A stretch of DNA of 64,000 bases from Serratia quinivorans (GTDB lineage Bacteria > Pseudomonadota > Gammaproteobacteria > Enterobacterales > Enterobacteriaceae), in the NCBI GenBank assembly GCA_900457075.1, contig UGYN01000002.1:1798001-1862000 (forward strand). The letters run 5' to 3'. This document shows, piece by piece, positions 5,133 to 45,563 of this stretch. Position 1 is the first letter of the stretch. The number at the start of each line of letters is the position of its first letter. The notes under the pieces are model-generated. The model saw nothing but the letters and a program-made list of their open reading frames with translations. It was not told the origin of the DNA and searched no databases. The translations under genes were made by a program, and so were the position numbers.

Positions 5133-5192
5133 GCCCACCCCCAAGACATAAAAAAAGGGCCTAATAGCCCAGTGATTCTGTTGCCAAATAAC

Positions 5193-5214
5193 AAAAAACC
5201 CCGAAAATTCGGGG
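5193..5214 (-). terminator. Intrinsic terminator between metY and rimP
   Basis: On the minus strand CCCCGAA pairs with TTCGGGG around a 2-base loop (5199-5214) and is followed by six U (A run at 5193-5198). It lies downstream of the metY tRNA and 60 bases before rimP, so it probably ends most tRNA transcripts. Read-through would feed the rimP-nusA-infB operon, which NusA itself may modulate (inference). Confidence 0.75.
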
Positions 5215-5349
5215 CTTTATGCAACTGGACCCTGTTTGCCGCTAAGCGGCTTCGGTGCAACTTTCTAGCAAGTGTCATTTTCAAATGTTGATCGAGAAAA
5301 GCGGAATTCAATCGAAAAGTGTATTTGAAAATAAACACTTAAAGGAAAG

Positions 5350-12250: not shown

Positions 12251-12295
12251 CGACAAACAAAAGAAGCCTGACTCGGAACAGTTGCCCAAGTCAGG
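12251..12295 (-). terminator. Attenuator in the greA leader (GraL-type RNA 3' end)
   Basis: CCTGACT (12267-12273) pairs with AGTCAGG (12289-12295). On the minus strand the stem is followed by CUUCUUUUGUUUGUC, a U-rich tract typical of an intrinsic terminator. It lies 95 bases or more ahead of the greA start. In E. coli early termination in the greA leader yields the small RNA GraL. I infer the same here from position and shape. Confidence 0.5.
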
Positions 12296-12412
12296 ATCGA
12301 TTTTGCATTTTGATACGCATTTTAGCTTAGAGTTCCTTGAGGGTCATCGTTTACTTTTTCCCTGAATGCACCGTAGTATGACGGCACGTTATCCAGCTGT
12401 TATCCCGAGATT

Positions 12413-23667: not shown

Positions 23668-23691
23668 GCCCTCGCTCGCGAGGGCTTTTTT
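23668..23691 (+). terminator. Terminator after the second yhcN copy
   Basis: GCCCTCGC (23668-23675) pairs perfectly with GCGAGGGC (23678-23685) and is followed by T6. It ends the yhcN transcripts 115 bases after the stop. Confidence 0.88.
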
Positions 23692-23699
23692 ATGGGCGT

Positions 23700-23723
23700 A
23701 AAAAAGGGCCGCTATCGGCCCTT
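23700..23723 (-). terminator. Terminator on the mpl strand
   Basis: AAGGGCCG (23704-23711) pairs with CGGCCCTT (23716-23723) around CTAT, with a U tract on the minus strand. It faces the yhcN terminator and would end transcripts from mpl after they cross the structured repeat. Confidence 0.8.
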
Positions 23724-23789
23724 AGACGCTGGCAAAGCCCGTTATTAGGGAGAGCGTGCCGATGGGGTCGTAGCGGCTTGTCCGCCGAC

Positions 23790-23857
23790 CAATTTTCCGG
23801 GAGCAAATTGGAACGACTTCCAGTCGGCCCGCAGGGCGGGACACATGGATGTGTCCC
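23790..23857 (+). repeat. Four-hairpin intergenic repeat, copy 1
   Basis: Four hairpins follow one another with no more than 3 bases between. H1: 23790-23810, outer stem CAATTT/AAATTG, loop CGGGA. H2: 23814-23826, CGACT/AGTCG. H3: 23827-23837, GCCC/GGGC. H4: 23838-23857, GGGACACA/TGTGTCCC with loop TGGA. The same series of hairpins with the same loops in H1 and H4 but different stem bases occurs at 37400-37471. It lies in the 368-base gap between the second yhcN copy and mpl, on the 3' side of mpl. Whether it acts as RNA or DNA is unknown. Confidence 0.75.
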
Positions 23858-23921
23858 ATAATGGCCCCTCGGTGCGCTAGGCCCGAGTATCTCGGGTTCA
23901 AAGACGACTTTGTCATCAAAA

Positions 23922-25302
23922 TCAATAGGTGGCTTTCGGATCGGGTTTGTTGGCCAAAGCCTCCAGCAGCCGATCGTGAATACCCCCAAAGCCGCCGTTA
24001 CTCATCACCAGAATATGGTCGCCCGGCTGAGCCGTTTTCACGATCATATCCACCAGCGTATCCAGATCGGCGCTCCAGTGGGCCGGCTGCACGCAGGCTT
24101 CCGCCACTTCCGCCACCTGCCAGGGGATATGGTGCGGCTGGAACAGGAAGACTTCATCGGCACGACCCAGCGACGGGGCCAGATCGTTCTTGCTGATGCC
24201 CATTTTCATGGTGTTGGAGCGCGGCTCAAGCACCGCCAGAATGCGGGCAGTGCCACCCACCTTGCTACGCAACGCAGCCAGGGTCGCCAGAATTGCCGTT
24301 GGATGATGGGCAAAGTCGTCATATACCGTGACGCCATTGGCTTCACCACGCAGCTCCAGACGACGGCGGGCATTGATAAAATCGCCGAGCGCGCGGCAGG
24401 CATCTTCAGGCAACACACCCACATGGCGCGTGGCGGCAATGGCCATCAAACCGTTATGCATGTTGTGTTCACCGACCAGCGACCACTTAACTTCGCCCAC
24501 CTGCTCACCATTAAGGAAAACCGCATAATGGCTGGCGTCCGGCGTCAGTTTCTGTGCACGCCATGCGCCTTCTTCCCCAACCAGCTCCTGCTCGCTCCAG
24601 CAGCCCATCGCCATCACCTGTTTCAGGTGGCTGTCGTTATCAGGCAAAATAATTTTGCCCTTGCCTGGCACCAAACGCACCAGATGGTGGAACTGTTTCT
24701 GGATCGCTTTCAGATCGTCGAAGATATCAGCGTGATCAAACTCCAGATTGTTCAGGATCAGCGTACGCGGGCTGTAATGCACAAACTTGGAACGCTTGTC
24801 GAAGAACGCGCAGTCATATTCATCGGCTTCGATGACAAAGAACGGGCTGCCCCCCCAGGCGAGCAGAAACGTCAAAGTTGCCCGGCACGCCACCGATAAC
24901 AAAGCCCGGCTGGTAGCCGCAGGCTTCCAGGATCCAGGTTGCCATGCCGGCGGTGGTGGTCTTGCCGTGTGTCCCGGCAACGGCCAGTACCCAGCGATCG
25001 CGCAGCACATAATCATGCAGCCACTGCGGGCCGGAAACGTAAGGGATGCCCTGCTCCAGTACTGCTTCAACACACGGATTACCGCGCGTCATGGCGTTAC
25101 CGATGATCACCAGATCCGGTGCAGGATCCAACTGAGCCGGATCGTAGCCCTGGATCAGTGCGATCCCTTCTTTCTCCAACAGCGTGCTCATCGGCGGATA
25201 GACATTAGCGTCAGAGCCGGTCACCTCATGCCCTAGCGAACGAGCCAGCACCGCCAGCCCGCCCATAAAGGTGCCACAGATCCCAAGAATGTGAATGCGC
25301 AT
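23922..25302 (-). pseudogene. mpl: UDP-MurNAc:L-Ala-gamma-D-Glu-mDAP ligase Mpl, frameshifted
   Basis: Mpl reattaches recycled murein tripeptide to UDP-MurNAc in peptidoglycan recycling. Codons from ATG 25302 (MRIHILGICGTFMGG) give the Mur-ligase N-terminal domain and the ATP loop AGTHGKTT. At about residue 150 the frame shifts inside a run of seven G (plus-strand C 24850-24856). With six G the reading would be LGGSPFFVIEADEYD, the expected Mpl sequence, and it continues to the TGA at 23922. As given, translation ends soon after the run. The restored protein would be 459 residues (E. coli 457). It is a real lesion, a slippage-prone tract or a sequencing error. Confidence 0.9.
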
Positions 25303-37265: not shown

Positions 37266-37295
37266 GCGGCCCCAAACGGGGCCGCGATTATTTTA
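37266..37295 (+). terminator. Terminator after ytfL
   Basis: GCGGCCCC (37266-37273) pairs with GGGGCCGC (37278-37285) around AAAC and is followed by GATTATTTTA. Confidence 0.8.
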
Positions 37296-37319
37296 GCTTT
37301 TGCAGGTGCTCTAACTATT

Positions 37320-37517
37320 ACCCTATGAATTTCGAGTTGCAGCTAGGCGGCCAGCTCACTCATCCCCAGGCGCTTACTTTAGTAAGTAACTGAGGTGACA
37401 AATCTGTCGGGAACAGATTTGAACGCTGCTTGCAGCGGCCCCTTTAGGGGCGTGGCCCACGGATGGGCCACGTAACTGAGTGCAGGTAACAACGCTGCAG
37501 CTTGAAAGGCGACGGGT
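37320..37517. repeat. Intergenic palindromic element with imperfect terminal inverted repeats
   Basis: A 198-base noncoding element between ytfL and ytfK. Its left end (from ACCCTATGAATTTCGAGT) and the reverse complement of its right end (from ACCCGTCGCCTTTCAAGC) match at 17 of 25 positions. Inside is a CTTACT/AGTAAG palindrome (37373-37386). I recall similar ends in intergenic repeats of Yersinia and Serratia. It contains the four-hairpin repeat at 37400-37471, which appears inserted within it. Confidence 0.7.
37400..37471 (+). repeat. Four-hairpin intergenic repeat, copy 2
   Basis: H1: AAATCTGT/ACAGATTT with loop CGGGA (37400-37420). H2: CGCTGC/GCAGCG (37424-37437). H3: GCCCC/GGGGC (37438-37451). 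H4: GTGGCCCA/TGGGCCAC with loop CGGA (37452-37471). Order, spacing (GAA between H1 and H2, none between the others) and the CGGGA and YGGA loops equal those of copy 1 at 23790-23857, while most stem bases differ on both sides together. Confidence 0.75.
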
Positions 37518-37523
37518 AGTTGA

Positions 37524-37730
37524 TCAACCCATCTCGGTCTGCAATAACAACACCTGACGGTTAACCTCTGACATCACGCTGAAGTGACGCCGGTCGCGAA
37601 TTTTCGGCAGCAGAATTTTCCCTTCATCGAATTCGAACGCGCCCACATCTTTGATATACAGCCGGCCACGAAACAGGGTCTTGACGTACTTCGCCACTTT
37701 CAACGGATTATAACGCTGGAAGATTCTCAT
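37524..37730 (-). CDS. ytfK: Stringent-response regulator YtfK
   Basis: YtfK (DUF1107) binds SpoT in E. coli and favours (p)ppGpp synthesis during phosphate and fatty-acid starvation. The 68-residue protein starts [17 protein letters not shown] and contains [20 protein letters not shown] and [10 protein letters not shown], nearly identical to the E. coli protein. ATG 37730 is the family start. Its 3' end abuts the palindromic element. A candidate PhoB half-site pair lies about 140 bases upstream. Confidence 0.93.

Positions 37731-44707: not shown

Positions 44708-45563
<856 letters not shown>

Follow-up and report, generated by a model that had tools for sequence, protein, structure and literature searches.

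A broad structured insertion unit related to RtT: four-hairpin cassettes in two different host repeats of Serratia quinivorans

Two segments of the window, the whole 64,000-nt stretch of Serratia quinivorans DNA analyzed here, are copies of a broad structured insertion or repeat unit related to RtT. The unit is probably a nonautonomous mobile cassette of hairpins that inserts behind an A in the loops of other hairpins, with an enzyme presumably supplied in trans. As proposed, the cassette would comprise about 72 to 76 nt of one strand, running from CAAA or CCAA to TA and forming four abutting hairpins (H1 to H4), of which H1 and H4 carry GGA in their loops. An earlier note on this DNA had reported the same four hairpins at both sites; that observation is real and stronger than originally claimed. 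Absent from it were the two different host repeats around copies 1 and 2 and the connection with tRNA genes. The features concerned are the following.

23704..23723, strand not assigned: putative terminator-like hairpin AAGGGCCG-CTAT-CGGCCCTT immediately left of scaffold B, read from the sequence and the fold of 23690-23830.
23729..23915, + strand: scaffold B, host repeat of copy 1, with left part 23729-23788 and right part 23861-23915; outer limits read from shared sequence.
23789..23860, + strand: cassette copy 1 (locus L022), opening with CCAATTTT and closing with CCCATA; H1 23789-23811, H2 23814-23826, H3 23827-23837, H4 23838-23857; supported by its fold and a match to covariance model R1 (E 8.5e-9), with borders from empty and filled sites.
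37319..37518, + strand: ERIC element, host of copy 2, with ends TACCC... and ...GACGGGTA; identified by shared ends and centre.
37399..37474, + strand: cassette copy 2, one of the three training copies of R1; H1 37399-37421, H2 37424-37437, H3 37438-37451, H4 37452-37471; supported by its fold and a match to RF02902 (32.7 bits, E 1.2e-4).

Folding bore out the same four hairpins at both sites, and compensated stem changes were present. Positions 23785-23862 of the window gave four adjacent hairpins at -29.0 kcal/mol (z -2.49), and positions 37396-37473 gave four at -42.5 kcal/mol (z -6.08). The stems and loops that had been described were correct within one base, H1 of copy 1 beginning at 23789, one base before the start given in the earlier note. 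Both copies share the same junctions, with AA between H1 and H2, then H2, H3 and H4 abutting, and a TA end. The H1 loop is CGGGA in both, and the H4 loop is TGGA in copy 1 and CGGA in copy 2. The reverse strands folded almost equally well (-28.5, z -1.77, for copy 1; -41.9, z -6.26, for copy 2). A stretch in which copy 1 is truncated within H3 (23690-23830) adopted a different fold (z -1.48).

A pattern search of the genome to which the window belongs gave 7 places, versus 0 in the reversed control; 3 of these are true copies and 4 are probably chance matches. Model R1 was built from three copies, including copy 2, and without copy 1 because the MAFFT alignment had placed H2 of copy 1 one column off. 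It gave 18 matches in the same genome, recovering copy 1 at E 8.5e-9, and the copies differ in sequence. With this genome included in each set, every one of the 30 genomes searched from the genus had matches, as did 37 of 60 genomes of a "relatives" set. A wider covariance model, R2, whose training set contained the E. coli rrnB copy, matched 53 of 148 genomes of the order (13 families) and 31 of 120 genomes in a sample of the phylum, some of them outside the class. Among the matches listed (80 of at least 119 stretches), the exact H1 pattern was found in Serratia, Yersinia, Pectobacterium, Klebsiella, Citrobacter and Salmonella, and further in Xenorhabdus, Rheinheimera, Arsukibacterium, Pseudoalteromonas, Thioalkalivibrio and Methylomonas. 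R2 confirmed 79 of these 80 loci at E ≤0.001, the exception being L210. BLAST with copy 2 matched 674 of 5,426 E. coli genomes.

Phages and plasmids were dropped as a vehicle for the unit. Viral contigs contained 4 stretches with one exact pattern. Out of 72,556 plasmid records, BLAST with copy 2 matched 173, with Salmonella accounting for 167; it also matched 7 records of a phage collection, all named Salmonella and some of them bacterial contigs. In an E. coli plasmid (L055, 1501-1580) and a Salmonella plasmid (L058, 1501-1580), the cassette lies between ybtP and ybtA. Tandem arrays of 3 to 6 units were observed in L106 (1501-2009), L103 (1298-1779) and L378 (292-972); the spacing was 143 nt in L106, where the array follows a tRNA-Ser, and about 203 nt in L103.

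The earlier claim that the hairpins belong to a repeat family with structure under selection was supported by the additional copies, their differing sequences and covariation above shuffled controls. In an alignment of 45 structurally aligned copies, 41 of them distinct (A5), 96.2% of cells were paired, and both sides of a pair had changed in 107 cells, compared to 27 in shuffles. The covariation score was 0.310, versus 0.125 in shuffled and at most 0.053 in slid controls. The exception among the five measures was the number of further pair types (29 versus 27.3), which was reached by 125 of 500 shuffles. In a wider sample of 62 distinct copies (A8), both-side changes occurred at 23 of 27 pairs and in 288 cells, versus 67 in shuffles; the score was 0.485, compared to 0.152 shuffled and at most 0.071 slid, and none of the five measures was reached by any shuffle. 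A5 and A8 were fitted to the structure and are therefore biased in its favor, and the shuffle test is inflated by kinship among the sequences; the covariation excess, slid controls included, was nevertheless judged too large for alignment bias and kinship alone. A chance likeness of two hairpin clusters is ruled out by the covariation and the copy number.

The conserved letters are found in the loops, and the stems vary freely. GGA was present in the loop regions of both H1 and H4 in 250 of 292 distinct cores, or in 99 of 114 rows when loops were compared in alignment A10, and it was missing from both regions in 13 of the 292. The motif CA, up to two further bases and GGA occurred near the 3' end of 241 of these cores. 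G-T pairs made up 94 of 2944 cells in the 114-row alignment A10, nearly all other pairs being Watson-Crick, and G-T outnumbered A-C mismatches by 50 to 18 when two special pairs were excluded. At the foot of H4, two positions set a G opposite an A, one in 59 and the other in 49 of the 114 rows; the sequences suggest tandem G-A pairs that are Watson-Crick in other subfamilies. Two copies in one genome (L063 and L080) have no GGA in the H1 and H4 loops and carry GCAA in H4, as if H1 and H4 changed jointly; their close relative L088 retains GGAA in H4.

The borders CAAA...TA emerged from a comparison of empty sites, insertions in unrelated hosts and head-to-tail doubles (L211, L235). The base before the cassette was A in 290 of 292 distinct cores, and the preceding dinucleotide was GA in 216, CA in 51, AA in 12 and TA in 11, so that "after GA" is not a strict rule. 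No target-site duplication was seen at the cassette insertions. The hosts of the 18 copies in the S. quinivorans genome were ERIC in nine cases (L008-L016), scaffold B in seven (L018-L024), a tRNA operon in one (L025) and another context in one (L017); a further host was seen in relatives at L044-L046.

The host of copy 2 is a repeat that we take to be ERIC on the basis of primer sequences. Within it, the cassette is flanked by ..CTGAGGTGA on the left and CTGAGTGCAGG on the right. The terminal inverted repeats and the centre of ERIC were common, in a comparison by eye, to the nine cassette-bearing copies of this genome and to 15 empty elements, which have only a few bases at the cassette site (found with one pattern). 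Two entry points were used, one after GTGA and one after GTGAGCGA. The left part of scaffold B, the host of copy 1, occurs 26 times in this genome, 7 times with the cassette and 19 times without. Its usual empty form is CCGCCGGAGCGCCCC, and its filled form is CCGCCGA, the cassette, and then ATGGCCCC or ATAGCCCC. Scaffold B is often bracketed by near-identical terminator-like hairpins, which were recognized by eye at nine of the 26 copies (L325, L328, L332, L334, L335, L338, L340, L343 and L345), and it folds well itself (z -4.15 for the L345 stretch). From its sequence, it looks like a repeat tied to terminators.

The association with tRNA genes was surveyed in 36 of the 53 R2-positive genomes of the order, a set that omits 6 genomes of the Serratia family and 11 others, mostly copy-rich. 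From 100 loci, 121 unselected R2 hits in 35 genomes were obtained, leaving out L067 (the only hit of its genome) and L077. For 39 of the 121 hits, the distance to a tRNA or 5S gene was at most 120 nt. Of these, 26 were downstream on the same strand (24 after tRNA genes and 2 after 5S genes; median distance, 79 nt), 8 were on the opposite strand at the 3' side of the gene, 3 on the opposite strand at the 5' side and 2 upstream on the same strand. Chance would place about 0.15% of hits in the downstream same-strand class, a rough estimate rather than a computed value. The right flank repeated at least 10 exact nucleotides of the last 20 nt of the adjacent tRNA in 17 of the 24 tRNA-linked copies, and at least 18 nt in 13, while a swapped-isotype control gave no match of 10 nt or more (maximum, 9); the other 7 copies had no 10-nt match. 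No tRNA was present within 400 nt of 80 of the 121 hits, and a tRNA-end match was found in just 3 of these 80 (control, 1). In the typical case, GGTTCGA closes the left flank, and the T-loop and acceptor end of the adjacent tRNA open the right flank. Since the right flank copies the tRNA's own 3' end, the cassette interrupts the T-loop of a tRNA 3' fragment that has been duplicated.

Individual loci gave a similar arrangement. At L260, a degenerate tRNA-Val whose T-loop contains the cassette adjoins an intact tRNA-Val, and at L208, a 5' fragment of tRNA-Ser whose D-loop contains the cassette adjoins an intact tRNA-Ser. In the S. quinivorans genome, the copy at L025 is situated downstream of tRNA-Lys, and the sequence after it, ATCCCGCACGACCCACCA, is shared with that tRNA; no tRNA was found in the loci of the window copies (L009, L022). 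In the genomes omitted from the survey, the best copies were antisense beside tRNAs in L052, L096 and L099 and in sense after tRNA-Glu in L064. In the named genomes, the link was less frequent: among the matches listed, a tRNA or 5S gene lay within 300 nt of 16 of 103 copies, 9 of which were downstream in sense. Elements that might close the host structure around T-loop copies were supported modestly in one case and little above control in the other: a closing stem (P0) that would join the left flank to the tRNA end by at least 6 complementary nucleotides occurred in 11 of 49 T-loop copies, versus 5.9% of swapped pairs, and an extra hairpin (H0) in 19 of 49, versus 26.8% in the control.

The E. 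coli K-12 rrnB operon has a copy between terminators T1 and T2, which scored 56.2 bits with R1, a model not trained on rrnB, and 74.7 bits with R2, which was. It starts 80 nt past the 5S gene, and the 3' end of 5S is repeated after it. Of 31 loci drawn from the phylum search, 13 contain a gene for a tRNA or tmRNA. Outside the class, the same arrangement was detected after tRNA-Ser, -Gln and -Asp, and some copies had no nearby tRNA. In other orders of the class, this arrangement was detected after tRNA-Arg (L370). One copy is situated 83 nt downstream of a tmRNA gene (L351, 1501-1580). In a Serratia marcescens genome, a copy (L237, 834-912) precedes a 5S rRNA gene by 71 nt, which by position places it in the 23S-5S spacer.

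The cassette was also found antisense within an IS200-like transposase gene at seven loci in five genomes.

L119, L123, L128, L154, L166, L173 and L371, antisense to the gene: cassette insertions in the transposase gene, always between ...GRF and (W)EGR.

The front piece of this transposase scored 20.2 bits with Pfam Y1_Tnp, under the cut-off of 23, and no NCBIfam model matched it. Judged from its sequence, the gene looks broken by the cassette. The Y1 transposase was dropped as an autonomous partner, since a recurrent gene that is itself interrupted by the cassette is a target rather than evidence for a partner. A set of 867 distinct open stretches of at least 130 codons near copies yielded neither an enzyme nor an autonomous partner.

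The A before the core, together with GGA loops on freely varying stems, suggests that a folded single strand is kept and recognized and that the unit moves or has moved. Insertion would take place beside an A in other palindromes, on the 3' side of their loops or unpaired bends, and the host structure would still be able to fold around the inserted cassette. The candidate target sites are the T-loop (TTCGA^ATCC), the D-loop (CTGA^AGGC), 5S (GGGA^ACTG), ERIC (GTGA^ or GCGA^), scaffold B and the transposase gene (CCCA^GAA). A trans-acting enzyme may recognize the folded single strand, specifically by strand and through the GGA loops, and insert the cassette; the folded-strand use by integron integrases or IS200/IS605-type transposases might serve as a model for this step. 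Copies may persist since the neighboring RNA gene retains an intact version, and a secondary RNA role is possible where a copy is transcribed. Counted in support of a mobile cassette are the covariation, the exact borders, the filled and empty sites, the head-to-tail doubles and the local copies of tRNA 3' ends, and the same target was used in unrelated genomes. Counting against it are the search near copies that gave no enzyme, the lack of a target-site duplication, the loose GA rule, the copies that are far from a tRNA or do not match its end, and the excess of G-T over A-C (50:18), which RNA explains no less well than DNA.

The main rival to the mobile cassette is a structured RNA with a function, either a trailer of the RtT type or a module of 3'-UTRs. 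The 3' ends of stable RNAs and mRNAs would carry it for the binding of a protein to the transcript, and its spread in repeats would be secondary. We consider this unlikely, though it accounts for several of the observations. CsrA/RsmA sites have GGA in a hairpin loop, with the consensus CANGGANG. Compared with this consensus, the cassette cores have GGA in the loop as well, and the resemblance of the H1 and H4 loops in 250 of 292 cores may point to such sites; H4 of copy 1 gave a 14-bit single-hairpin match to Rfam RsmV. The sense-strand placement about 79 nt downstream of tRNAs, the G-T preference, the weak R2 match (22.4 bits) of RttR, an annotated E. coli small RNA, and the ties of RtT to tRNA operons and the stringent response, as described in excerpts of PMC4986893, also favor an RNA. 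However, the orientation to flanking genes was mixed (++ 15, -- 11, +- 10 and -+ 7 of 43 intergenic copies; home-made gene call, 45 loci), and because of this mixed orientation in the genus, a transcription-linked 3'-UTR placement was not adopted as the main reading. Antisense copies lie at similar spacing to tRNA-Phe and others (8 of the 39 adjacent hits, plus L052, L096 and L099), copies are antisense to the transposase gene, terminators often stand between the tRNA and the cassette (by eye), and neither loop region contains GGA in 13 of 292 cores.

A palindrome of the REP/BIME kind, acting as DNA by binding protein or forming hairpins, kept for the nucleoid or replication and spread by a RAYT transposase, is improbable. 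It would be in line with the intergenic position of 43 of 45 loci, the nearly complete Watson-Crick pairing (G-T in 94 of 2944 cells) and the rtT-like elements within BIMEs mentioned in the excerpts of PMC2965389. The unit is nevertheless not a single palindrome but four distinct hairpins whose order is fixed and whose loop letters are specific to one strand, and the Y1-type genes seen are interrupted targets. Least probable by far is local rearrangement only, in which slippage duplicates hairpin-prone tRNA-end sequence and gene conversion between arms keeps the structure. Duplications of tRNA ends and terminators do accompany many copies, and tandem arrays exist, but the same unit with the same borders is found in ERIC, in scaffold B and at one transposase codon, in several families. 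Slippage would not carry the unit to unrelated sites and is therefore disfavored.

The family had been left unnamed in the earlier note, and its nearest named relatives are RtT (RF00391), AaHKsRNA22 (RF02902) and known ERIC insertions. The window copies do not belong to an existing Rfam family at the gathering level, as neither had such a hit, and the suggested comparison with Rfam yielded the sub-cut-off RF02902 match of copy 2. RF00391 had no match at E ≤1 in 23700-23950 or 37290-37540 of the window. The position typical of RtT, after a tRNA and with the tRNA 3' end beyond, was observed for L025 and others, not for the window copies. RtT resembles the cassette in its location after a tRNA, in the flanks GGTTCGA on the left and AATCC...CCA on the right, and in H2, H3 and a GA-flanked H4. 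In L067, the cassette core (1501-1574) lies inside an RtT match (1458-1591) of 45.2 bits against a cut-off of 45, and the E. coli tyrT region, where RtT is located, gave four R2 matches of 16.1 to 22.4 bits. In contrast to the cassette, the Rfam alignment of RtT annotates just part of the unit as structure, and the literature, as far as excerpts go, treats RtT as a product of tRNA operons rather than as an inserted unit. A 2010 study (PMC2965389) describes, in excerpt, Enterobacteria attenuator candidates that resemble rtT and are located in BIMEs, and a link between rtT and repeats is therefore already published.

The Rfam structure line of AaHKsRNA22 contains the same four hairpins in the same order. 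L066 matched RF02902 above the cut-off (47.8 bits), copy 2 matched below it (32.7 bits; cut-off, 39.8) and copy 1 gave no match. Copy 2 aligned to positions 1-101 of 101 and forms the first four hairpins with some nonstandard pairs. AaHKsRNA22 differs in having a short fifth hairpin after the four and a consensus without GGA in the H1 and H4 loops; a different AaHKsRNA is the subject of PMC9577009, as judged from an excerpt. Interruptions of enterobacterial repeats that preserve a well-folded RNA appear in the titles of Cromie et al. (1997) and Sharp (1997), cited in the reference list of PMC3696847; copy 2, an insertion in ERIC, is comparable going by these titles. ERIC, RU elements and Box C are covered in PMC10969869, PMC2229807, PMC2759123 and PMC2267715, the last of which tabulates 32 copies of the 56-bp Box C of E. 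coli, in the excerpts available. From such descriptions rather than sequence, Box C resembles the cassette as a short folded repeat. Integron attC sites, IS200/IS605 and RAYT/REP were likened, by analogy, for the proposed use of a folded strand and for conserved loop letters. The E. coli rrnB T1-T2 spacer is known as a single locus that forms part of a terminator region, and it is not known to have been described as a mobile unit. No publication joining the rrnB spacer, RtT, AaHKsRNA22 and ERIC insertions was found in the limited literature searched, which included few subscription journals.

A wider proposal is more tentative than the mobile cassette itself. The copies may represent a phylum-wide class of hairpin cassettes of about 75 nt that a putative enzyme moves as a folded single strand into hairpin loops, giving RtT RNA, AaHKsRNA22, the rrnB T1-T2 element and the ERIC insertions a common origin. 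The targets of this class would be tRNA T- and D-loops, 5S and tmRNA neighborhoods, MITEs and a transposase gene. If this is true, a number of so far unexplained bacterial elements, namely the RtT RNA, the rrnB inter-terminator element, the structured ERIC insertions and an Rfam family that has received little study, are a single mobile element whose structural target is clear. The rrnB T1-T2 element is present on many cloning vectors. The proposal raises a testable question, that of the enzyme by which 75-nt hairpin cassettes are inserted into tRNA loops, and a starting alignment for a broader RNA family is now available. Elsewhere in the window, other Rfam leaders were detected, namely greA (12260-12382), RpsF (45104-45190) and rimP (5150-5251).
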